From: Halopelagius longus
Lineage (GTDB): Archaea > Halobacteriota > Halobacteria > Halobacteriales > Haloferacaceae
NCBI RefSeq assembly: GCF_900100875.1
Contig: NZ_FNKQ01000003.1
Coordinates: 310,001-374,000 of the forward strand
DNA: 64,000 nucleotides
Reading direction: 5' to 3'
Shown here piece by piece: positions 2,047-57,862 of the stretch. Below the pieces are notes generated by a model. It made no database searches. It saw nothing but the letters and a program-made list of their open reading frames with translations, and was not told the origin of the DNA. Within the stretch, counting starts at the first letter, position 1; each line of letters opens with the position of its first letter. The position numbers and the translations under genes are program-made.

Positions 2047-3975
2047 TCAGTCGTCGTCGTCCCCGACTTCGGTCCGGGAGGCGCGGCGACTCGCCCGTTC
2101 GACGAACTCGTCGGGGAGTTCGTCTATCTCGCCCGCTTGGACGCCCCAGAGGTGGGCGTACAGGCCGTCCTCGCCGATGAGTTCCTCGTGGGTGCCGCGC
2201 TCGACGATTTGCCCGTCTTCGAGGACGACTATCTGGTCTGCGTCCTTGATGGTCGAGAGGCGGTGAGCGATGCTGAACGTCGTCCGGTCCTCCGTCAGGC
2301 GGTCGAGGGAGCGTTGGATGAGCATCTCCGTCTCGGTGTCGACGTCGGAGGTGGCCTCGTCCAAGATGAGGATGTCGGGGTCCCTGAGGATGGCGCGGGC
2401 GATGGAGAGACGCTGACGCTGCCCGCCGGAGAGCTTCACGCCGCGTTCGCCGATTTCGGTGTCGTAGCCCTCCGGGAGGTTCCGGATGAAATCGTGGGCC
2501 TCGGCGGCTTTGGCGGCCTCGACCACGTCCTCGTGGTCGGCGTCGAACGACCCGTAGCGGATGTTCTCCTCGACCGTTCCGTAGAACATGAACGTGTCCT
2601 GCCCGACGTAGCCGATGGCCTGCCTGAGACTCGGAATCGTCACGTCGCGCACGTCGGTACCGTCCACTCGAACCGACCCCTCGTCCACGTCGTACATCCG
2701 AAGGAGGAGCTTCAGGACCGTCGATTTCCCTGCGCCGGTCGGGCCGACGAGCGCGAGGGTGTCGCCGCCCGGAACCTCGAACGAGACGTCCTCGACGATG
2801 GTCTCGCTCTCGTCGTAGCCGAACGTCACGTCGTCGTACTCGACGCGGCCGTCGCGGACGACCAACTCCTCCGCGCCGGGGTCCTCCTCGATGCGCGACG
2901 GTTCGTCCATCAGGCCGAACATCCGAGCGCTGGAGGCGTGCGCCCGCTGGTACATGTTGATAATCTGCCCGAACTGCGCCATCGGCCAGATGAACCGCTG
3001 GGTGAAGAGGATGAACGTGACGAACTCCCCGGGCGCGAGCGTCCCGGTGAAGAACCACGGTCCCGTCTCGTTCAGCACCCAGAGGCCGCCGACGGTGAAC
3101 GTCAGGACGAAGCCGATGCCCGCGAGGATGCGCAGGCCGGGGAAGAACTTGATGCGGGTGTCGATGGCGTCCCAGTTCGCGTCGAAGTAGTCCATCGACA
3201 CGTCCTCTACGCGTTCTGACTCGTACGTCTCCGTGTTCGACGTCTTGATGACGGAGATGCCGCCGAGGTTGTTCTCCAACCGGGAGTTGACCCGCCCGAC
3301 GGACGAGCGGACTTCGGCGTACTTCGGCTGGATGGTCTTGATGAAGTAGTAGGTGAAGAGGGCGATGAGGGGCACCGGAAGCAGGGCGACGAGGGCGAGT
3401 TGCCAGTTCAGCCAAAAGAGGATGCCCGCGATGCCGAGGACCATGACGCCGAGGCGGAACGCGGAGTTCATCCCGTCGTTGAGGAACCGTTCGAGGCGGT
3501 TCACGTCGTTCGAGAGGATGGACATCATCTCGCCGGTCTGCTTGTCGGCGAAGAACTCCATGTTCAGCCGCTGCATCTTGTCGTACGTGTCCGTCCGAAC
3601 GTCGTGTTGGATGTTCTGCGCGAAGGAGTTCCACCCCCAGTTGCGCGTCCAGTGGAACGCCGCCCCGCCGAAGAACGCGACGGCGATGAGGCCGATGGTG
3701 AACCACAGTTGCGCGTCTCGCGCCCCCGGGAGCCACGCCTGCGGGACGATGGGGAGGTCGAACGCGCGTTCGTCGAGGAAGATGGCGTCGACGGCGATGC
3801 CGAGGAGCAACGGCGGCAGGAGGTCGAGCAGTCGCGCGCCCACGCTCGCGAGGACGCCGACCGAGAACTGCGGCAGGTTCCGTCGCCCGTACTCGACGAA
3901 CAGACGCCGCATCGGATTCTCGGCTTGCTCCCGTTGTTCCTCGAAGGGGTCGTCGTCGCTCGGGGAGGTAGCCAT
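2047..3975 (-). CDS. ABC exporter half-transporter (membrane domain fused to ATPase)
   Basis: A 642-residue half-transporter of the MsbA/MDR exporter type. The N-terminal half holds six predicted membrane segments (residues about 45-340), and the C-terminal half is the ATP-binding cassette with Walker A GPTGAGKST, signature LSGGQRQRLSIARA, Walker B ILILDEATS and the H-loop SIAHRLSTI. It should act as a homodimer that exports lipids, drugs or other hydrophobic compounds, but the substrate cannot be read. The ATG at 3975 (MATSPSDDDPFEEQ) is preferred over an in-frame start nine codons upstream because it begins the acidic N-terminus. The gene is probably monocistronic. Confidence 0.92.
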   Translation of the reverse strand: MATSPSDDDPFEEQREQAENPMRRLFVEYGRRNLPQFSVGVLASVGARLLDLLPPLLLGIAVDAIFLDERAFDLPIVPQAWLPGARDAQLWFTIGLIAVAFFGGAAFHWTRNWGWNSFAQNIQHDVRTDTYDKMQRLNMEFFADKQTGEMMSILSNDVNRLERFLNDGMNSAFRLGVMVLGIAGILFWLNWQLALVALLPVPLIALFTYYFIKTIQPKYAEVRSSVGRVNSRLENNLGGISVIKTSNTETYESERVEDVSMDYFDANWDAIDTRIKFFPGLRILAGIGFVLTFTVGGLWVLNETGPWFFTGTLAPGEFVTFILFTQRFIWPMAQFGQIINMYQRAHASSARMFGLMDEPSRIEEDPGAEELVVRDGRVEYDDVTFGYDESETIVEDVSFEVPGGDTLALVGPTGAGKSTVLKLLLRMYDVDEGSVRVDGTDVRDVTIPSLRQAIGYVGQDTFMFYGTVEENIRYGSFDADHEDVVEAAKAAEAHDFIRNLPEGYDTEIGERGVKLSGGQRQRLSIARAILRDPDILILDEATSDVDTETEMLIQRSLDRLTEDRTTFSIAHRLSTIKDADQIVVLEDGQIVERGTHEELIGEDGLYAHLWGVQAGEIDELPDEFVERASRRASRTEVGDDDD

Positions 3976-4064
3976 TACACCGTCTTCGGGGGCCCAGCAC
4001 ACTAAACCGTTTGATACGAACCGAAACAGTCAGCGCGGCGAGAGCGACGCGGACCCGCGACGGC

Positions 4065-4334
4065 CTACAGCACTCTGTCCTCCACGTCCGGGTCGACGGA
4101 CGCCTCGGAGAGGTCCTCGCGGATGCGCGCCCGGAGGGGGTCGGGGACGGTGTTCCGTCCGACGGGAACCGCCGTCTCGCCGTCGTCTTTCACCTTCCAG
4201 TAGAGGACGCACTCGGAGGGTTCGTAGAACTCGACGCTGTAGTGGTCGTCGGCGCCCCGGTAGTGGACTCTCGCCGCGAACCCCTCGGCGCGCCACCCCT
4301 CCAACTCCGCGAGTGCCTCGACGTGTTCGCCCAT
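4065..4334 (-). CDS. Small conserved acidic protein, unknown function
   Basis: An 89-residue acidic protein beginning MGEHVEALAELEGWRAEGF. It has a compact mixed alpha/beta look, with HYRGADDHYSVEFYEPSECVLYWKVKDDGE in the middle, and no membrane segment, signal peptide or metal motif. I do not recognise a named domain. The high acidic content, ATG start and codon use match neighbouring real genes, which supports expression. It lies 21 nt downstream of the DUF192 gene on the same strand, so the two may be co-transcribed. Confidence 0.65.
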   Translation of the reverse strand: MGEHVEALAELEGWRAEGFAARVHYRGADDHYSVEFYEPSECVLYWKVKDDGETAVPVGRNTVPDPLRARIREDLSEASVDPDVEDRVL

Positions 4335-4969: not shown

Positions 4970-5042
4970 GGGCTCGTAGTCTAGGGGTTATGACGCGTCC
5001 CTTACAAGGACGAGATCGGTGGTTCGAATCCGCCCGAGCCCA
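4970..5042 (+). tRNA. tRNA-Val (anticodon TAC)
   Basis: The sequence folds as a cloverleaf: acceptor GGGCTCG pairs with CGAGCCC, the anticodon stem CGTCC pairs with GGACG around loop CTTACAA, and the T arm contains GGTTCGAATCC. The anticodon is TAC, so it reads Val codons. The discriminator is A5042 and CCA is not encoded. Its last 22 nt are repeated three more times downstream. Confidence 0.95.
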
Positions 5043-5364
5043 TGTTTCTTCGGCGAACGAAGTGAGCCGAGAAACATCTATCGAGGGCGATTCGAAGCAG
5101 GGAGCGAACGGAGTGAGCGACCGAGGTTCGAATCCGCCCGAGCCCACTAAAATCCGTGAGCGACAGCGAACGGTATTTTCGTGACGAGAGGGCGGTTAGA
5201 ACCTGACGACGAGTGAGCGTAGCGAACGAAGTCGGCGTGGTTCGAATCCGCCCGAGCCCATGATTCTGCGGCGAACGAAGTGAGCTGAGAATCATCTACC
5301 GAGGGCAATTCGAAGCAGGGAGCGAACGGAGTGAGCGACCGAGGTTCGAATCCGCCCGAGTCTA
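5043..5364 (+). repeat. Three tandem tRNA-Val tail units, each with two hairpins
   Basis: Copies of the tRNA-Val 3' end (GGTTCGAATCC through the acceptor strand) lie at 5125-5146, 5239-5260 and 5343-5364. The original is at 5021-5042, giving spacings of 104, 114 and 104 nt. The first two copies are exact and the last ends GTCTA instead of GCCCA. Each unit opens with a perfect or near-perfect hairpin, for example ATGTTTCT...AGAAACAT at 5042-5077. It continues with an inverted partial copy of the tail (GGGCGATTCGAA) that pairs with the tail itself across a loop containing GAGCGAACGGAGTGAGCGA. No gene is visible in this stretch. Confidence 0.85.
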
Positions 5365-9491: not shown

Positions 9492-10010
9492 ATGAGTCGT
9501 GTACTCACCTTCGGAGCAGTCCTCGTCGTCCTCGTCTCGGGGGCGGGAGGAGTCGTCGCCGCAGACGCCGCCGGGTCGTCGTTCGCAAGCGGAACGGCCG
9601 ACACCTCGCAGGCGGCGCCCGCGGGACAGAACGACCGTTCCGCGGCGGCCCAAGTCAAAGGCGACAGTCGGAACGGTAACTTGCGGTTCGACTTCCGGAT
9701 TCAGAGCATAGAGCGGTGCGGCCTGACGTGTCGCGACGTGACCGTCGCGGCGACGAACACGAAGAGCACGACGGCGCGGAACGTCACCTTCGTGACGAAG
9801 ATGTACGCCGGCGACACCCTCGTTTGGCGCGGAAACGAGACGTTCCGGAAGGTCGAACCGGGCGAGACCAAGACGACGACGAAGCGCGTGAACCTGGGCC
9901 TCGTCGAGGCGGCGCAGGTCAGAGGGAACGGCGGCTACGTGACCGCAGAGACGAACGTGACGTGGAACTCGGGCAACGAGTCGTTCAGCGAGCGTCGAAA
10001 AGTGACGTAG
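9492..10010 (+). CDS. Secreted beta-rich protein with Sec signal peptide
   Basis: A 172-residue protein with a Sec-type signal peptide (VLTFGAVLVVLVSGAGGVVAA, residues 4-24) and no lipobox. After a low-complexity linker, residues 60-172 form a small beta-sandwich-like domain. It has two close cysteines (RCGLTCRDVTV), possibly a disulfide, and N-glycosylation sequons (NVT, NET, NVT, NES). The block TTARNVTFVTKMYAGDTLVW resembles domains of secreted haloarchaeal proteins with immunoglobulin-like folds. I do not recognise a named family. It is the last gene before tRNA-Phe. Confidence 0.65.
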   Translation: MSRVLTFGAVLVVLVSGAGGVVAADAAGSSFASGTADTSQAAPAGQNDRSAAAQVKGDSRNGNLRFDFRIQSIERCGLTCRDVTVAATNTKSTTARNVTFVTKMYAGDTLVWRGNETFRKVEPGETKTTTKRVNLGLVEAAQVRGNGGYVTAETNVTWNSGNESFSERRKVT

Positions 10011-10068
10011 GGCGGGTCGAATCACTTCGAAATCCTTTTTTGTATAACCAGCATCCCACAGAATGCGC

Positions 10069-10142
10069 GCCGCCTTAGCTCAGACTGGGAGAGCACTCGA
10101 CTGAAGATCGAGCTGTCCCCGGTTCAAATCCGGGAGGCGGCA
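10069..10142 (+). tRNA. tRNA-Phe (anticodon GAA)
   Basis: A cloverleaf with acceptor GCCGCCT pairing with AGGCGGC, D arm TAGCTCAGACTGGGAGAGC, anticodon stem CTCGA/TCGAG around loop CTGAAGA (anticodon GAA), and T arm CCCGGTTCAAATCCGGG. The discriminator is A10142 and CCA is not encoded. A run of seven T residues and GTATAA lie about 25-35 nt upstream and may include the promoter. The gene borders the island at 10245-16413. Confidence 0.95.
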
Positions 10143-10258
10143 CTTCTCTGAACCCGACCGCCGAGCGAAGCGAGCACGGCGGGTTCTGTAAGTGGTACCC
10201 GACCGGATTCTGAACCAGCGAGCGTCAGCGAGTGAGGTTCAAATCCGGGAGGCGGCAC
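10143..10258 (+). repeat. tRNA-Phe tail unit with two hairpins
   Basis: The last 22 nt of tRNA-Phe (10121-10142) recur exactly at 10236-10257, 115 nt downstream. The unit holds hairpin one, GAACCCG...CGGGTTC with loop GAGCGAAGCGAGC, and hairpin two, CCGGATTCTGAACC pairing with GGTTCAAATCCGG of the tail copy across a loop containing GCGAGCGTCAGCGAGTGA. The architecture matches the units after tRNA-Val and tRNA-Ser although the arm sequences differ. The tail copy overlaps the left end of the island's direct repeat. Confidence 0.82.
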
Positions 10259-10329
10259 ACCCTTCTCGATTCAGCTGCCGTAACGACCTTCGAGAGCGAC
10301 TACTCGTCCTCTCGCGTCGTTTTCCGTTC
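10245..10329. repeat. Left 85-bp direct repeat (candidate attL)
   Basis: It starts CCGGGAGGCGGCAC, the end of the tRNA-Phe tail copy, continues through ACCCTTCTCGATTCAG and ends with TCGCGTCGTTTTCCGTTC. It matches 16329-16413 at 81 of 85 positions. The identity begins abruptly inside the tRNA-derived acceptor strand. Confidence 0.85.
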
Positions 10330-10550
10330 CTTGATAAGTCGAGAGTTGTTACTGCGTCTCCTTCCGTCTCGTAATTGCACGGCCGATCGTCTCAGGAAGC
10401 GTTGCGTACTGCACGCGGCGAGGCGGTGTCTGTCGTGACCGTAGGGCTGAATACAGAGGATACATCTCTCGCAGAGATCTCGTTTATTCCGTCTGATCGG
10501 AGCTGAACTAACCCCGAGGTAGGACGTGCGAATGCGGCACGAGATTCGCC

Positions 10551-10961
10551 TCAATCTACTTCGCTGATGAAGGACAGCACCTCGTCGGTGTAACGGTCTG
10601 GGGCGACGAGATGCACCGCACGTCCGTATCCCTCCAAGGTAAGCGAGTCGACTGTTTGGCATCATTTCGTGGAGTCGTTCGGCCATGCTTTTGTGGGGGC
10701 TCTCACTCCCGACGAGCAGTAACGTCGGGGTGGAGAGCTCTCCGAACGGTGTGAGATCCCACCAGTCAAGCTTCCCAGCAGTTTTCAACTCAGGCAGGAG
10801 GGTTTGATGGGATATATCCACGTGGGTATCCCATACCGGTGACGAACGTGGTGACAACCAAAGAGTTACTAAATTCAACGGTCGATACGCACTGAGGCTC
10901 AGGCTCTCGGCGAACTCGACCTGAAACGCTAGAAGCGATAGTCGGTCGATACAGAACGTTT
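10551..10961 (-). pseudogene. Alpha/beta hydrolase relic (C-terminal half, frameshifted)
   Basis: Minus-strand coding sense is visible in two frames. The first, starting upstream of 10878, reads DRLSLLAFQVEFAESLS and then LDWWDLTPFGELSTPTLLLVGSESPHK, the strand and loop that carry the acid residue of alpha/beta hydrolases. After MMPNSRLAYLGG the frame shifts, and the end GRAVHLVAPDRYTDEVL followed by SFISEVD and a stop at 10551 is read in another frame; its H is the likely catalytic histidine. The nucleophile elbow is missing. It looks like the remains of a hydrolase broken at the island edge. The outer boundary is approximate. Confidence 0.6.
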
Positions 10962-11092
10962 TAGCAGAGCGATTAGGGCCTCTAACAGAACGCGATCTCT
11001 CACACCAACATGGACGTGCTACTTAGGGGACTGTCTGTCACTGATTGCGAAAGAGAGGCTTATGAACCGTTACTCTACATACTATCGATACG

Positions 11093-11713
11093 ATGAGTAA
11101 CTATCCTGAGACTGAACAACGAATCAGAGAAGCTGCCTTCCGTGCACTTACTAGACACGGATACGCGGATCTCTCGATCAAAGATATAGGCGACGAACTC
11201 GGTCAAAACCCATCCCTGATATACCATTACTTCGATAGCAAAGACGAATTACTGCTTTCGATGCTCGATGTCTTCGTCGAGATTTTTGCCGGCCAACGAG
11301 CTGAGCAGCCGATCACTGACCCGGAAGCGGAACTACGACAGTTCATTGATCAAGTTCTCTCTCCTCAACCAGAGCAAGTCGAGCAAGTCCTGTTCTCTCC
11401 ACCACCCGATATCCAACAAGGGGTTTCGCGAGTGTTTGTCGAACTGTGGGCGCATGCGACGTGGGATGACGAATTCCGAGCAGAAACTACACAAGTGGAA
11501 AACCGACTCAGAGACACGGTCATTGAGATCCTCCGTGCCGGTATCGAACTTGATCAGTTCCAACCGGTGGAACCGGAGCAGACGGCAGATCATCTTCTCT
11601 TTCTGCTGAAGCAAACGATCCACACTCGTACGACGACAAACCGAGATGACGCCACGGAGCGCGGTCAAACGATCATCGATGGCGTAATAGACGATATTTC
11701 CGTCGAGAGTTAG
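11093..11713 (+). CDS. TetR/AcrR-family transcriptional repressor
   Basis: A 206-residue regulator. Residues 6-52 are the TetR helix-turn-helix: RIREAAFRALTRHGYADLS, IKDIGDELGQNPSLIYHYF and the helix SKDELLLSMLD. The remainder is a helical ligand and dimer domain. The gene has more AT-rich codons than the chromosome around it. It lies 114 nt before the first P450 gene, and a near-identical palindrome stands before P450-1, P450-2 and the SDR, so it is the obvious candidate to bind that site. The inducer is unknown. Its own promoter region lacks a good copy of the palindrome. Confidence 0.93.
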   Translation: MSNYPETEQRIREAAFRALTRHGYADLSIKDIGDELGQNPSLIYHYFDSKDELLLSMLDVFVEIFAGQRAEQPITDPEAELRQFIDQVLSPQPEQVEQVLFSPPPDIQQGVSRVFVELWAHATWDDEFRAETTQVENRLRDTVIEILRAGIELDQFQPVEPEQTADHLLFLLKQTIHTRTTTNRDDATERGQTIIDGVIDDISVES

Positions 11714-11804
11714 TCAGAGGGCTGCTGTTCTCGTTTCGGCGACCGCTTCCTACGTTACTCTCGCCGCAGTGCTACTGGCCGACGACGGTATCACAAGACC
11801 TATG

Positions 11805-11824
11805 TTAATTAATCAATTAATTAA
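11805..11824. promoter_or_regulatory. Palindromic operator before P450-1
   Basis: The 20-bp sequence TTAATTAATCAATTAATTAA is a perfect dyad of 9-bp arms (TTAATTAAT and ATTAATTAA) around a 2-nt centre. It ends 3 nt before the P450-1 ATG. For a leaderless transcript it would overlap the -27 TATA region, so a bound repressor would block TBP. Confidence 0.75.
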
Positions 11825-11827
11825 TGT

Positions 11828-13057
11828 ATGCAGTCCTCTGGATCAGCCGTTGGAGTGGGTCAGGCACCGGAAGCCATTCGAAGCCGCGAGAGGCAGCTCT
11901 CGCCGTTCGAGTGGTACGCTGAGATGCGTCAGAAAACTCCCGTTTGTTACGACGAACAACGGGAAACGTGGGACGTGTTCCGATACGAAGACGTAAACCA
12001 CGTTCTCAAAAACCATGATGCGTTCACAGCTAATCGTACACTGGAGGACAACGAATCCTCGAACGGCGGCAGTGATGAGATGCCGATGTTGCAGACGATG
12101 ATCACAACAGACCCGCCGGAACACAACCGACTTCGGGGATTTATCGACGAACAGTTCCAACCGGGAGCGATACGGGAGTACCAGCCCCAAGTGGAGAAGG
12201 TAACGGCGGAGTTGCTAGACGACCTCGAAAACAAGCAGCAATTCGATTTTGTCGACGAGTTCGCAGTTCCGGTTCCGGTCATCGTCATCGCCGAGTTGCT
12301 AGGGATCCCCGCTGACCGCCGCGAGCAGTTCAAGGAGTGGTCGGATGCACTCGTTGCGCGGCCCGAAGACGACACAGAAGAGGAGATTCAACGGGTCCAG
12401 CGAGGACAGCAACAGGCCCAACAGGAGATGGGCAGGTACTTCGCAAAGTTACTGGAAGAGCGCCGGGGGGGTGACGGCGATGATCTCGTTACGCTCGCAG
12501 CGAACGCAGAAGATCTATCCAGAGGAGAGAAGGTCGGATTCTGTATCCTCCTCCTTCTCGCAGGCAACATCACGACGACGAACCTCCTCACGAATACGAT
12601 CTGGTCGTTCGAGGAAGAGGGAATCATAAACGACGTTCGAACGGGGGCGATCGATCACGAACAGGCTATCGAAGAGGTGCTTCGATATCGATCCCCGATC
12701 CAGTCATTAAAACGAATCGCTACAGAGAACGTCGAGCTGAACGGCCAACAGATCCAGACCGGGGACGTCCTGACACTCTGGTTGGGTGCTGTAAACCGTG
12801 ATCCGGAGATCTTCGACGACCCCGAGAAGTTCCGACCCGAGCGAGGGCCCAACCGGCACATCGCGTTCGGAACGGGAGTCCACTTCTGTCTGGGAGCTCA
12901 TCTCGCGCGGATGGAAGCAGACGTAGCCATAGAGCAGTTACTTGAGCGCTTTGATCGGCTGGACGCGGATCTATCGGATCTTCAGCCGTTGAGTAGCCTC
13001 TACGGTCTTGAATCACTCCCCTGTGAGGTGAGCGTGAACGCTCATTCCGAAAGATAG
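11828..13057 (+). CDS. Cytochrome P450 (P450-1)
   Basis: A 409-residue soluble class I-type P450. Visible signatures are the I-helix oxygen-activation block LAGNITTTNLL near residue 240, the K-helix ExxR in EEVLRYRSPIQ near 280, and the heme loop FGTGVHFCLGAHLARME with the axial Cys at residue 354. It should hydroxylate a hydrophobic substrate using electrons from ferredoxin; no redox partner gene is next to it. It resembles the convergent P450-2 throughout, including WDVFRY near residue 53. The palindromic operator abuts its start. It could act on terpenoid, steroid-like or xenobiotic compounds, but the sequence does not say which. Confidence 0.95.
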   Translation: MQSSGSAVGVGQAPEAIRSRERQLSPFEWYAEMRQKTPVCYDEQRETWDVFRYEDVNHVLKNHDAFTANRTLEDNESSNGGSDEMPMLQTMITTDPPEHNRLRGFIDEQFQPGAIREYQPQVEKVTAELLDDLENKQQFDFVDEFAVPVPVIVIAELLGIPADRREQFKEWSDALVARPEDDTEEEIQRVQRGQQQAQQEMGRYFAKLLEERRGGDGDDLVTLAANAEDLSRGEKVGFCILLLLAGNITTTNLLTNTIWSFEEEGIINDVRTGAIDHEQAIEEVLRYRSPIQSLKRIATENVELNGQQIQTGDVLTLWLGAVNRDPEIFDDPEKFRPERGPNRHIAFGTGVHFCLGAHLARMEADVAIEQLLERFDRLDADLSDLQPLSSLYGLESLPCEVSVNAHSER

Positions 13058-13330
13058 GCTGATATCGCCCATTGTTATGTTCGCGTATCTACGTAATGGA
13101 TCTGGGGTCACCGAGTGACAGGCAACCGGTTACTCGGGTGCTCGGTAGCCGTCAGTGAATAGTGTCCTCTCGCCTCTGTTTGGCACCTCCTATATCACAG
13201 TCCTGTACTGTCGATCGACGGTAGTCAAGTGGCCGATTGAAGGGCGACCGTATTCGACCTCCGTAATAGCCAACGCGACATCCGCCAGTTGTGTACAGGG
13301 AGGAACAAAACCAACGTAATCCGATCGGAG

Positions 13331-14524
13331 CTAGTTACGCGGATGAAACGTCATCGGGAGGCGATCGAATCCGTAGCTGGTTGCCAGCTCGACGGGCTCA
13401 GATGGACCCTCGTCGACCTCGAGTCGTTCGACGCGGTCCGTGACAGCATCAAGGATGACGTCGCCCTCTAGCTTCGCGAGCGGCGCGCCAAGACAGTAGT
13501 GAGGACCGAATCCGAACGCGATGTGGCGGTTCGGCCTCCGATCGGGACGGAACAGATCCGGATCGTCGAAAGCGTCGGGGTCCCGATTGGCCGACCCGAT
13601 CCAGGAGACGATCCGTTCACCTTCGGGAATCTCCGTTCCGCTGAGTTCGACCGCTTCAGTCGTTCGTCGCCCGGAGATCGACTGTACCGGTCCCCGATAC
13701 CGGAGAACCTCGTTGAACACTGTCCGCCGGTCGAGCTCGCCCTCGCGGAGTCGTTCGTACTCCCCGGTTTCCTCGAGCGTCCAAAGGGCGTTCCCGACGG
13801 CGTGGGTCGTCGTCGAGTGGCCGGCTAGAAAGAGGAAGACACAGAACGCTCGCTGTTCGGATGGCGAAAGCGTCGGTTCGTCGTCCGACTCCGAACCCGC
13901 GATGACCGAGATCAGGTCGCTTTCCGGGTTCTGGCGACGCTCACCTAGGAGGTTACCGAAGTATTCGTACATCTTTCCCACCCCTTCCATGATGGCATCG
14001 CGTCCAGCCTCGTCGCCAGTCATCGCTCCGGACCACTGTCTGACCAGATCCCAGTCGTCCTCGGGAACGCCCAAGAGACGGGAGATGGTTGAGACGGTCA
14101 CCGGGGCGGTTAGTTCGCCGATAGCGTCGATCTCCCTTCCATCTTCGAGCGCTCGATCGAGGCGGTCATCCACGATCGACCGAATCGACGGGCGAAGCTC
14201 ATCGAGGTTTCCTGGTTGGAAGTACTCCTCGACGACGCCCCGAAGCCGGTCGTGTTCCGGCGGGTCCTCATCGATGAGAAGCGTCCCCAGGTTTCCGTTC
14301 GGATCGAAGTCAGATGCGCCCTTCGAGGTGAATGTCTCGTGGTCGGAGAGCGCCCGCTTGACGTCATCGTAGCGAAAAACGTCCCAACAGTCGCGACTCC
14401 CGTCGTACCGTACGGGTTCGGTCTCGCGCATCGTCTCGTACCACGGAAATGGATCCATCAACCGCTCTTCCGTGGTGAGTTCGTCCGGTGGTCGCATATC
14501 AGGCCCAGGATTTTGCTGGCTCAC
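13331..14524 (-). CDS. Cytochrome P450 (P450-2)
   Basis: A 397-residue P450 with I-helix LAGHSTTTHAVGNALW, ExxR in FNEVLRYRGPVQS, and heme loop FGFGPHYCLGAPLAKLEG with Cys at about residue 344. The start is a GTG at 14524 next to the operator; an ATG 27 nt inside is possible. It is a paralog of P450-1 (shared WDVFRY, EDPPEHDRLRG versus TDPPEHNRLRG, and PEVLRYR-like blocks), but it has less AT-rich codons, so the two may have separate histories. It converges with P450-1 across a 270-nt gap in which I see no gene. The SDR lies upstream on the same strand. Confidence 0.95.
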   Translation of the reverse strand: MSQQNPGPDMRPPDELTTEERLMDPFPWYETMRETEPVRYDGSRDCWDVFRYDDVKRALSDHETFTSKGASDFDPNGNLGTLLIDEDPPEHDRLRGVVEEYFQPGNLDELRPSIRSIVDDRLDRALEDGREIDAIGELTAPVTVSTISRLLGVPEDDWDLVRQWSGAMTGDEAGRDAIMEGVGKMYEYFGNLLGERRQNPESDLISVIAGSESDDEPTLSPSEQRAFCVFLFLAGHSTTTHAVGNALWTLEETGEYERLREGELDRRTVFNEVLRYRGPVQSISGRRTTEAVELSGTEIPEGERIVSWIGSANRDPDAFDDPDLFRPDRRPNRHIAFGFGPHYCLGAPLAKLEGDVILDAVTDRVERLEVDEGPSEPVELATSYGFDRLPMTFHPRN

Positions 14525-14525
14525 G

Positions 14526-14545
14526 TTAATTAAGTGATTAATTAG
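14526..14545. promoter_or_regulatory. Palindromic operator before P450-2
   Basis: The sequence TTAATTAAGTGATTAATTAG is a near-perfect dyad (TAATTAA and TTAATTA arms). It matches the operator before P450-1 in length, arms and position, ending 1 nt before the GTG start on the minus strand. Confidence 0.72.
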
Positions 14546-14681
14546 GCGTGTAGGTCTTTCGGTTGGCTGTGTCCTCGATCGATCTCTGCGTGCAGAACGA
14601 TCGTCATCTACTACGGGGAAATCGACAGTACCTCGCAGAGATACTCACGAAAAGCGGATTCCAAGCCCAGCTAATTTGTCC

Positions 14682-15518
14682 TCAATCGGCCGCCTGACCG
14701 CCGTCGACGGGCAGCGTGTGACCCGTAATGTACGATGCATCGGACGAACAAAGGAATGCGACCGCACCGGCCATCTCTTCGGGTTCAGCGATGCGGTCCA
14801 TCGGTACGTCCCGCATGGCGGACGTATCGTAGTCGGCCCGGATCGTCCGGATCGCCATTCGGACTAGTTCGATTGCCGTCCCGATCCGGTTCAACAGCGG
14901 TATCGATGACCCGCCTGTTCCGCCCAAAAGACCTGATTGAATGTTCGTCTTTGTAGGGCCCGGAGCGATCGCGTTGATCCGGATGTCACGACTGGCGTAC
15001 TCGAGGGCTGCTGATTTCGTCAGGCCAACAACGCCGTGTTTGCTGGCTGAATAACTGGAGAGTCCGCCCATCCCCACTAAGCCGGCCTCGGAGGCCGTGT
15101 TGACGATCGCGCCACCGCCCTGACTCTCCATGACGGGGAGCTCTGCCTTCATGCAGGTCCAGATGCCTTTCAGGTTGATAGCGATGATCCGTTCCCACTG
15201 TTCGTCCGTGATGTCAGTGACCCCCGAAAAGCCGGTGAGGATTCCCGCGTTGTTGTGCGCGAAATCGAGGCTTCCGTAGGTATCGACCGCGATGTCGACC
15301 ATTCGCTCGACCGACTTGGAATCGGAAACATCGACCTCGACAAACGTCGCGTTACCGCCGGCATCCTCGATCAGATCGACTGTCTCACGACCAGCCGTCA
15401 CGTCGATGTCCGCGGCGACGACGTTCGCTCCTTCCTCAGCGAAGCGGCGTGCCGATGCGCGTCCAATTCCTGATGCGGCTCCCGTTACGACAGCTGTATT
15501 CCCATCTAGTCCATTCAT
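14682..15518 (-). CDS. Short-chain dehydrogenase/reductase (classical SDR)
   Basis: A 278-residue classical SDR. It has the cofactor loop VVTGAASGIGRASA at residues 10-23, an acidic residue after strand two (VVAADID, so NAD preference is likely), NNAG near residue 90 and the catalytic YSASK near 160. The end DASYITGHTLPVDGGQ is typical of the family. It should oxidise an alcohol or reduce a ketone, plausibly one made by the neighbouring P450s. It lies 157 nt upstream of P450-2 on the same strand, and each has its own copy of the palindrome, so they belong to one regulon rather than one strict operon. Confidence 0.93.
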   Translation of the reverse strand: MNGLDGNTAVVTGAASGIGRASARRFAEEGANVVAADIDVTAGRETVDLIEDAGGNATFVEVDVSDSKSVERMVDIAVDTYGSLDFAHNNAGILTGFSGVTDITDEQWERIIAINLKGIWTCMKAELPVMESQGGGAIVNTASEAGLVGMGGLSSYSASKHGVVGLTKSAALEYASRDIRINAIAPGPTKTNIQSGLLGGTGGSSIPLLNRIGTAIELVRMAIRTIRADYDTSAMRDVPMDRIAEPEEMAGAVAFLCSSDASYITGHTLPVDGGQAAD

Positions 15519-15534
15519 GAGTAAACCCTGCCGT

Positions 15535-15553
15535 CAATTAACTACTCAATCAA
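15535..15553. promoter_or_regulatory. Degenerate copy of the operator before the SDR
   Basis: Read on the minus strand the 19 bp are TTGATTGAGTAGTTAATTG, which match the P450-2 operator at 14 of 19 positions with the same half-site spacing. It lies 16 nt before the SDR start. It is weaker than the other two, so binding there is less certain. Confidence 0.5.
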
Positions 15554-15697
15554 TAAGAGTTTCTATACACCATCATGATAAATATTTGATGGGTAGGCAA
15601 CTATGAGTGGAAGCTCTACATCCAACAACGGTTATCTATAGCCATCCGCGCAGTATTCTGTAGTAACTGTCGACTTCACTACCCGATGGGTGTCACA

Positions 15698-15973
15698 CCT
15701 CCGTAAACCTCGTTAACGTATACGACCCCGAAGATGCTGGTCTGACCCGCGGTCCCGGAGGGGAGTCCTGGTACGACTTCGAACAGTGATCCCGACGATT
15801 TCGTTCGAGAGAATCGGGAGACCTTGGTCCGGATACTCGAGCATTCGGATGACCCGTTCGTGAGAGCGATCTGTCTGAAAGCGCTCGTCAGGTACGGAAG
15901 CGACCCTAGTCTTCAAGTCCTACAGCAGGAAGTCGAGCGAGCAGGAGGCGAGGAAGGAGGTGACAGCGCTTGA
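15698..15973 (+). pseudogene. Frameshifted relic of a HEAT-like haloarchaeal gene
   Basis: Two consecutive frames carry coding sense. The first reads VNVYDPEDAGLTRGPGGESWYDFEQ and stops. The reading then continues in another frame as SDPDDFVRENRETLVRILEH, then DDPFVRAICLKALVRYGSDP, and ends GGDSA with a TGA at 15971-15973. The second part is an amphipathic helical repeat pattern of HEAT type. The two parts join naturally at DFE/SDPDD, so a single frameshift is likely. I cannot name the parent gene. It converges with the integrase relic. Confidence 0.55.
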
Positions 15974-15975
15974 GT

Positions 15976-16345
15976 TCAGTCACCAGTGGCGTCAGCGAAC
16001 TTCTGCGCGTCACGGAACAGTTCGGGACTGGAGTCGACGAACCGAACCATCTGCTCGAAACGTTCGATGTCGTCGAGCAGCTCCGGATCCTCCCGAGCGA
16101 TTCGGAGCAGTTCGGTTCGCATCTCTCGCTGTTCCTCGTCGAGTTCTTCGACCGCACTGCGTTCGATCGCCTACCCACATCACACACAGAAGACTCGTCT
16201 CTGGGCGACTGCTGCTGGCATCGCGGACAGGTGAGGGAAGCGATCGGGTTGCTCTCCTCCGCATCAACGTCAGCACCGTGAGCGCGAGCGATTTCCCGGT
16301 CGTTTGCCTCTCCGAACACCGCAATGTACCGGGAGGCGACACACC
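15976..16345 (-). pseudogene. Tyrosine recombinase (XerC/D-like integrase) relic, C-terminal part
   Basis: Reading leftwards from the right repeat, one frame gives RYIAVFGEANDREIARAHG, then the first half of a zinc ribbon (CPRCQQQSPRDE). A one-base shift leads into FCV-stop-CG-stop-AIERSAVEEL, where the stops probably replaced Trp and Gln of an FCVWCGQ-type second knuckle. The frame then continues cleanly as DEEQREMRTELLRIAREDPE, with RFEQMVRFVDSSPELFRDAQ further on, to a TGA at 15976. This tail is typical of haloarchaeal phage-integrase-family proteins. The catalytic domain is missing, cut off at the direct repeat. The gene is dead. Confidence 0.72.
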
Positions 16346-16413
16346 CTTCTCGATTCAACTGCCGTAACGACTTTCGAGAGCGACTACTCGTCCTCTCGCG
16401 TCGTTTCCCGTTC
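16329..16413. repeat. Right 85-bp direct repeat (candidate attR)
   Basis: It begins CCGGGAGGCGACACACCCTT and matches 10245-10329 with four substitutions, the first within the tRNA-like acceptor end. It overlaps the 5' edge of the integrase relic. From 16414 to 16616 I see no gene. Confidence 0.83.
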
Positions 16414-57347: not shown

Positions 57348-57428
57348 GCCGGGATGGCCGAGTGGTAAGGCGCACGCCTGGAAAGCGTGTTCCCTTTGGG
57401 ATCCAGGGTTCAAATCCCTGTCCCGGCG
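57348..57428 (+). tRNA. tRNA-Ser (anticodon GGA)
   Basis: The acceptor GCCGGGA pairs with TCCCGGC, the anticodon stem CACGC pairs with GCGTG around CTGGAAA (anticodon GGA), and there is a long variable arm (TTCCCTTTGGGATC) as expected for Ser. The discriminator is G57428 and CCA is not encoded. Its last 22 nt are repeated downstream three times. Confidence 0.95.
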
Positions 57429-57862
57429 CTTCTCTAACTTCTAACCCCCGAGCGAGGCGTTTATCGCCGAGCGTACGCGGTAGAAGTTTGCAAGCGATTA
57501 CGACGGGATTTGAACCCTACCAGTCGCGCGCAGCGAACGTAGTGAGCGAGCACGTCTGGTTTCGGTTCAAATCCCTGTCCCGGCGCTTCTTCGGAAACTG
57601 ACCGCCGAGCGAGGCGTCTCGTCGCCGAGCGACGCCGGTCGAGTTCGGTGAACGTCTACGGACGGATTCGAACTAGGGAGCGACTGAAAGGAGCGACCGT
57701 AGTTCAAATTCCTGTCCCGGCGCTTCTCTCACTTCTAACTCCCCAGCGAGGCGTTTCATCGCCGCGAGTACGCGAGTAGAAGTTTGCGAGCGGTTACGAC
57801 GGGATTTGAGCCAACGAGCAGATCTTCGATTTGCGAGTGAGGTTCAAATCCCTGTCCCGGCG
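57429..57862 (+). repeat. Three tandem tRNA-Ser tail units, each with two hairpins
   Basis: Tail copies (GGTTCAAATCCCTGTCCCGG plus CG) are at 57564-57585, 57701-57722 (two changes) and 57841-57862, spaced 157, 137 and 140 nt. Each unit begins CTTCT. Unit one has a hairpin (CTTCTA...TAGAAG with GGCG/CGCC inside), then CGGGATTTGAACC, the inverse of the tail. This pairs with the tail copy over a loop carrying ACCAG...CTGGT and CAGCGAACGTAGTGAGCGAG. The other units follow the same plan with drifted sequence. The last 50 nt before the next gene start another CTTCT unit that is cut short. Confidence 0.85.

Follow-up and report, generated by a model that had tools for sequence, protein, structure and literature searches.

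Structured copies of tRNA tails behind haloarchaeal tRNA genes, and a low-GC island joined at one of them in Halopelagius longus

The DNA analyzed here, called the window throughout, is a stretch of 64,000 nucleotides of the Halopelagius longus contig NZ_FNKQ01000003.1 (positions 310,001 to 374,000, forward strand; coordinates count from its first letter). It includes a tRNA-Phe gene followed by a structured unit that ends in a copy of the tRNA 3′ end (the tail copy) and by a low-GC island. The features are listed below, together with two more arrays of the same kind.

4970..5364, + strand: tRNA-Val (TAC) with three tail copies (about 5125-5146, 5239-5260 and 5343-5364)
10069..10142 (end 10142/3), + strand: tRNA-Phe (GAA) gene, the last 22 nt of which (10121-10142) are the copied sequence
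10143..10235, + strand: spacer of the unit, 93 nt, with a T-rich start, hairpin A (10150-10186), the 5′ arm of hairpin B (10203-10216, an inverted T-arm) and its loop (10217-10235)
10236..10257, + strand: tail copy, matching nt 52-73 of tRNA-Phe at 22/22 positions, the first 13 nt of which are the 3′ arm of hairpin B
10245..10329, + strand: left copy of an 85-bp direct repeat, starting inside the tail copy
10258..16328, no strand assigned: low-GC island, 6.1 kb, with genes for TetR (11093-11713, +), P450 (11828-13057, +), P450 (13331-14524, -) and SDR (14682-15518, -)
16329..16413, + strand: right copy of the 85-bp direct repeat, which retains 12 of the last 13 tail nucleotides and lacks the T-arm
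57348..57862, + strand: tRNA-Ser (GGA) with three tail copies (about 57564-57585, 57701-57722 and 57841-57862)

An earlier note on this DNA had described the tRNA-Phe gene as carrying a single tail unit with two hairpins. The sequence agreed with this description: the perfect copy follows the 93-nt spacer and both of the loops quoted in the note are present. The T-arm of the tail copy (10236-10248) pairs with the inverted T-arm at 10203-10216, and the spacer and tail copy together are predicted to fold into two hairpins (-47.6 kcal/mol). Positions within tRNAs follow the conventional numbering. Elsewhere in the window, between 25810 and 29417, there are direct repeats 158-206 nt long spaced at about 400-500 nt, which we presume to be a repeated protein domain.

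The island stands out by its GC content, which is 53-58% in 10001-16000 as opposed to 63-67% in the surroundings. The two copies of its direct repeat are identical at 81 of the 85 positions. The part of the tail common to both is 13 nt (CCGGGAGGCG[G/A]CA), and the remaining 72 nt lie beyond the tRNA end. The note had placed the start of the repeat in the acceptor part of the tail copy and outside the real tRNA. The start does lie within the tail copy and the real tRNA is untouched, but it falls in the T-stem, whose 3′ strand (CCGGG, 10245-10249) comes first, with the acceptor strand next. A repeat of 13-14 nt of the tRNA end, as in SNJ2-type integration, was found at both ends of the island (12/13 match at 16329-16341). 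No integrase, of the SNJ2 type or another, was found among the seven listed ORFs of the island that were tested; an SNJ2-type integrase may have been lost.

The relative age of the tail copy and the island was assessed by comparing the tRNA-Phe loci of 20 relatives, each with about 10 kb of downstream DNA. Neither the TetR nor the P450 genes of the island were found at any of the 20 loci, and a weak SDR match (36%) was present at one (G029). A tail copy (≤5 mismatches, within 170 nt) was present at 14 of them; it was missing in G006, G011, G015 and G036, and degraded copies were recognized by eye in G028 and G034. When all the tRNA-Phe loci are counted, our own included, 17 of 30 have the copy (G004 and G038 end at a contig edge). 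The most informative relative was G001, from the same genus, which has the empty site: the upstream gene, tRNA-Phe and a tail copy (21/22, at 120 nt) are followed directly by genes for an acylphosphatase (89%) and a DUF502 protein (87%), the two that come after the island in the window. Where the tRNA tail has a variant nucleotide, the copy has the same variant (G005, G013). The possibility that the island brought the copy was ruled out by these counts. Since island-free relatives carry the copy, it is not island-borne, and the alternative, that the copy pre-dates the island, as the note had asked, or is independent of it, is the one that the G001 locus bears out. As far as the comparison can tell, the tail copy appears to be older than the island.

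The tRNA-Phe unit is one case of a clade-wide feature of Halobacteria. A search of the H. longus genome with RF00005 identified 45 tRNA genes, 20 of which are followed within 300 nt by a copy of their own tail with ≤3 mismatches, and three more by one with 4-5 mismatches. The total came to about 26 of 45 when three arrays displaced 10-28 kb by islands were included. When the tails of other tRNAs were used as controls, a copy with ≤3 mismatches within 700 nt downstream was found in 13 of 1972 tRNA/flank pairs, and 98 of 1972 had one at the second threshold. All copies in the genome are on the tRNA strand, and upstream copies occur only where two tRNA copies stand in tandem. A pattern of two T-arms (TTCRAATC-N-GTTCRAATC) matched in 192 of 194 Halobacteria genomes, the exceptions being G006 and G032, and the reversed pattern in none. 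Chance as the source of the tail copies was ruled out by the control tails and by the absence of reversed matches. In a sample of the phylum, the pattern was found in 21 of 22 Halobacteria and in 50 of 97 other genomes, mostly once or twice in the latter. The mean number of matches per genome was about 11 in the 22 Halobacteria versus about 0.8 in the others (G299, a CRISPR array, left out). This difference rules out tandem tRNA genes as the explanation for the class-wide matches as a whole, although some of the listed matches in Halobacteria are tandem tRNAs or chance.

A structural pattern run against a species collection gave at least 120 matches. Among the 80 matches listed nearly all were haloarchaeal, with four from Woesearchaeota and one from Holophagaceae. 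The Holophagaceae match (L198) was rejected as a unit carrier. Units were seen by eye in three of the four Woesearchaeota genomes (G336, G338 and G339), and a wider scan found few, in a patchy distribution. Tail units with inverted arms are present in some Woesearchaeota (L137, L199; G336, G338, G339, G365, G413), far outside Halobacteria. Scans of IMG/VR viral contigs with the unit pattern produced no unit, and a scan with the core of hairpin B had zero matches. The one viral contig that matched, L124, was rejected as well, being a phage tRNA cluster. Both L124 and L198 were excluded from the unit counts in the comparison of modules across tRNAs.

The layout of the units is as follows: a T-rich start, hairpin A, and hairpin B, in which the 5′ arm is an inverted T-arm and the 3′ arm is the copy of nt 52/53-73 of the local tRNA. 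In 169 first units, identity between copy and tRNA was 0.93-1.00 at nt 53-73, 0.83 at nt 52 and 0.30 at nt 51; past the tRNA end it was 0.57 and fell to about 0.35. These units were admitted at ≤4 mismatches, so that the inner values are biased and the edges are not. The first tail copies start 42-235 nt after the tRNA, a distance too short for an integrase gene between the tRNA and the first copy. The fraction of T in the first 8 nt was 0.43 after tRNAs (n=205) and 0.45 after tail copies (n=81), compared with 0.15 in mid-spacer (n=285). A T-rich start thus follows tRNAs and tail copies alike, so that the unit reproduces the surroundings of the tRNA 3′ end. In one sub-type that recurs, the copied T-loop is longer by a C (GTTCACAATC) and the loop sequence is common to different tRNAs; examples are the units of our own Arg-TCG and Ser-CGA genes and of the Phe genes of G002 and G018.

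An inverted T-arm (≤3 of 11 mismatches) was found in 157 of the 169 units versus 14 of 169 shuffled ones, many of the loci having been chosen by such an arm. Among 103 units that were not selected on the arm, it was present in 67 versus 10 shuffled, and 36 had no arm within 3 mismatches; in our own genome the figure was 25 of 29. Position 57 and its partner agree at 0.93 within a unit versus 0.51 between units, and nt 63-65 also show higher agreement within units than between them. An alignment of hairpin B was made from 23 sequences of eight amino-acid isotypes, picked because they have the motif AGTCG in common and loops of similar length. Paired cells amounted to 93.9%, two-sided changes numbered 60 versus 24.2 in shuffled alignments, and the covariation score was 0.309 versus 0.133 (reached in 0/500 shuffles; slid versions gave at most 0.093). 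Compensatory changes maintain the hairpin.

Mismatches in hairpin B are asymmetric between strands. On the tRNA strand, G-T/T-G outnumbered A-C/C-A 55:16 in the 67 units with an arm that were not selected on it, with a weaker ratio of 19:10 in our own genome alone. The tRNA strand also folds better, in 119 of 157 hairpins B with RNA parameters and in 109 of 157 with DNA parameters (strand bias with the latter, 109:44 and 103:46). These results suggest a single strand in the sense of the tRNA as the form in which the unit acts. RNA is the better match, with single-stranded DNA a possible alternative in view of the strand bias seen with DNA parameters too.

A covariance model of hairpin B, built without the acceptor strand, was searched in eight genomes. 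It had no match in two of them, both incomplete. The top genome match of model R1 was hairpin B of tRNA-Ser (GGA), which was among the source sequences of the model. Thirty of the best loci were fetched, and 26 lie ≤320 nt downstream of a tRNA on the same strand. The other four were two arrays of our own genome displaced by islands, one antisense match in a Phe unit, and L389, with no tRNA within its 1.5-kb flank.

The units differ between species as whole pieces. In the genus g13 (52 genomes), 30 loci were fetched (L265-L294), which are related and not independent; that of G048 is a tRNA-Tyr locus and not a Phe allele. The tRNA-Phe arrays of this genus have 0-3 units made up of a few modules in differing orders. 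The flank that follows one to three units in some species directly abuts the tRNA in others, with the joint exactly at the 22-nt tail, so that species differ by whole units at the precise tRNA/tail boundary. Modules containing hairpin B recur behind different tRNAs (Cys/Gly, 84% over 100; Asp/Ala, 81% over 106), and the tail and arms fit the local tRNA. At L213, a 1.5-kb stretch (2750-4300) lies between tail copies of tRNA-Gly. It has no integrase and includes two genes, one coding for a DUF7437/TrmB-like HTH protein and the other for a 175-aa protein that had no significant Pfam match and no PIN match.

Such a pattern of turnover would be expected if the units were small non-autonomous MITE-like elements that insert behind tRNA genes, duplicating the tail on insertion, with the hairpins as element ends and the identity of the tails as a mere side effect of inserting. 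The exact zero-unit alleles (G311; also G093, G328, G319, G127, G162, G130 and G314), the modules common to different isotypes and the gene cargo in L213 all speak for it. In these eight genomes, the match to query positions 42-175 or thereabouts overlaps the one to 437-484. However, recombination loss between 22-nt repeats yields identical empty alleles, neither a transposase nor an enclosing autonomous element was identified, the IMG/VR pattern scans contained no unit, and the covariation between arm and tail needs an extra step. We consider it unlikely that the units are elements of this kind.

One module of genus g13, P, could be taken as a sign that the units are scars, in other words pairs of attachment sites remaining from integrated elements whose interior was lost. 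Besides the tail, the P module retains tRNA nt ~27-51, a part that a hairpin interrupts immediately ahead of the tail copy, and so it resembles the far end of an island; moreover, tail copies in general stop precisely at the tRNA end, as archaeal attachment sites do. Nonetheless, most units have no nt 27-51, and unit modules are homologous across isotypes and genera, with a conserved, covarying hairpin. The copies are also far better conserved than the spacers. In pairwise comparisons of 15 P units over ten-column windows, the difference was 0.00-0.05 in the part from nt ~27-51 and the tail end (0.00 in the last tail windows) and 0.33-0.48 in the left spacer. An origin of the units as scars is therefore quite improbable.

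The earlier note had proposed that the array offers spare target sites, that elements integrate there without touching the tRNA gene, and that this could be one reason why the copies are kept. It had also raised the question of whether islands of other haloarchaea join at tail copies rather than at true tRNA ends. Integrase matches were found in 39 genomes, and 30 fetched loci, 20 further regions and our own Leu locus were inspected. In 13 of the inspected loci there is a same-strand tRNA just upstream of the integrase; 12 of these islands are fused to the true tRNA and one is joined at a tail copy. The exception, tRNA-Gly of G060, shows that an integrative element can join there. At this locus the tRNA is followed by a unit and a tail copy, then by the integrase/HTH element, and after it by 20 nt of the tRNA with the tail, a near-identical unit and a tail. 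The element (L349, 123-3300) is 2.9 kb long and encodes an integrase, a DUF7342 HTH protein and one further protein with no assigned identity. In G057, its relative (90.7% identity over 1266 bp) is joined directly to the true tRNA-Gly. Either the G060 element inserted at the first tail copy of a tandem array, or a unit was regained.

The far end of the island was located in 9 of the 13 cases within about 20 kb, where it repeats 42-65 nt of the tRNA, and a tail array lies just beyond it in five of the nine. Two of our own tRNA genes have the same arrangement, with the tail array directly beyond the island: tRNA-Glu-TTC (L325, C1:999611), with an 11.5-kb integrase island whose far end repeats 57 nt of the tRNA, and tRNA-Leu-TAG (L326, C2:68863), with one of 10.4 kb and a repeat of 65 nt. 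Repeats of 42-65 nt reach 20-43 nt deeper into the tRNA than the 22-nt copies, and hence most such integrases see a partial site in a copy. A tail copy would be fully equivalent only for short-site integrases that use 13-14 nt at the tRNA end. At our own tRNA-Arg-CCG (L402, C1:68544), the array is about 28 kb away, behind a 13-nt tail repeat and an intervening putative island.

Thus, islands can use a tail copy and usually do not. Joining at tail copies as a rule, in place of true ends, is contradicted by the 12 islands fused to the real tRNA. The part of the proposal that stands is that a copy can serve as a target, as the window island, which begins in the tail copy, and the G060 element illustrate; the tail repeat before the displaced Arg-CCG array and the 13-nt att sites reported for SNJ2 in the excerpted text of PMC8371274 point the same way. 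As the reason for retention of the copies, the spare target is unlikely, indeed very improbable. Besides the preference for true tRNAs and the repeats longer than the copies, little would be gained because integration at a tRNA normally restores it, and the hairpin covariation, left unexplained by spare sites, and the transcript-sense bias point elsewhere.

The inverted T-arm could also be a guide that base-pairs to select tRNA genes with a matching T-arm (A/G at position 57, nt 63-65), the unit being copied as a single strand (RNA or ssDNA) behind the tRNA and duplicating the tail; this is a long shot, and if true, tRNA genes of Halobacteria and some Woesearchaeota would harbor a mobile system that is targeted by a guide, has no relative known so far and at times includes gene cargo.

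The explanation that we favor, with modest confidence, is that the tRNA-tail array is a lineage-wide structured non-coding cassette located directly behind tRNA genes of Halobacteria and acting as tRNA-trailer RNA. In this inferred mechanism, the unit functions as RNA within the trailer. A tail copy would provide the tRNA 3′ end once more, together with its T-rich stop. The inverted arm would hold the copied T-arm in a hairpin and thereby keep it from competing with the real tail for tRNA folding, and a read-through transcript would gain a second, harmless 3′ end. Units would spread as cassettes, by duplication or insertion at the tail, and would be lost by recombination between the 22-nt repeats. 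The window island would have come later and separately, joining at the tail copy and perhaps using a short attachment site at the tRNA end. Counting against the trailer reading, transcription may end in the T-rich stretch that immediately follows the tRNA, which would leave the unit silent. The arrays are not essential, since about half of the tRNA genes lack one and G006 and G032 had no pattern match.

These observations bear on how tRNA loci are read. Almost all of the haloarchaeal genomes sampled by pattern have a structured element, attached to as many as half of the tRNA genes. If it is active in the trailer, it adds a new layer to archaeal tRNA gene expression; should it be mobile, it would represent a new class of tRNA-bound cassettes. 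Because tail copies exist without an integrated element, the customary reading of a partial tRNA copy as proof of one is unsafe. A literature search by title and abstract opening, mostly among papers outside subscription journals, listed no description of tRNA-tail arrays.

Several known systems resemble the units in part. Archaeal islands of tyrosine recombinases, bounded by attL and attR, share with them a copy of the 3′ part of the tRNA ending at the tRNA end, and such islands occupy the same places, as at our own Glu-TTC and Leu-TAG genes. Unlike those islands, which have integrase genes, kilobases of cargo and repeats of 42-65 nt, the units are about 100-160 nt long, gene-free and tandem, with repeats of 22 nt (P units are an exception on repeat length). 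SNJ2-type integration uses an att site of 13-14 nt at the tRNA end, according to the excerpted text of PMC8371274. The window island is similar in that the tail part common to its ends is 13 nt, and differs in that no integrase was found in its seven tested ORFs and its repeat continues 72 nt past the tRNA end. The transposase-free repeats of Haloquadratum (MITE, PATE and SMR), described in the excerpted text of PMC3119063 as being lost by recombination between short repeats, are, like the units, short, palindrome-bearing and gene-free. Unlike the units, they are not described in that text as tRNA-bound, and the tRNA copies mentioned there are tied to prophage or plasmid integration only. In the excerpted text of PMC9897764, the tRNA gene fragments treated are those of Thermococcaceae; its main text contains neither the word haloarchaea nor the word Halobacteria.

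The closest resemblance is to the tyrT/tyrV locus of E. coli. In strain K-12, tyrV is followed by three copies of the last 19 nt of the tRNA (including CCA) at +156, +334 and +512, with a period of 178, and a small RNA, RttR, is annotated in the first interval, between the tRNA and the repeats. Processing of the tRNA transcript sets the rtT RNA free. The haloarchaeal units are likewise tandem, same-strand copies of the tRNA 3′ end located downstream and ending exactly at the tRNA end. They differ in that the copies are 22 nt long without CCA, the period is about 100-160, and the tail is held in a hairpin with a matching inverted arm. A search of the window for the Rfam family RtT gave no match at the gathering score, which only three tRNAs reach. 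By this analogy the units would work like rtT, but they are not filed as such. E. coli has the arrangement at one locus, unlike the haloarchaea, where units are found at up to half of all tRNA genes. The reading that seems to us somewhat more probable than otherwise is that they are structured cassettes of the tRNA trailer, comparable to tyrT/rttR of E. coli but distributed across the genome. If they are active in the trailer, what has been a curiosity of E. coli tyrT would become a general principle.
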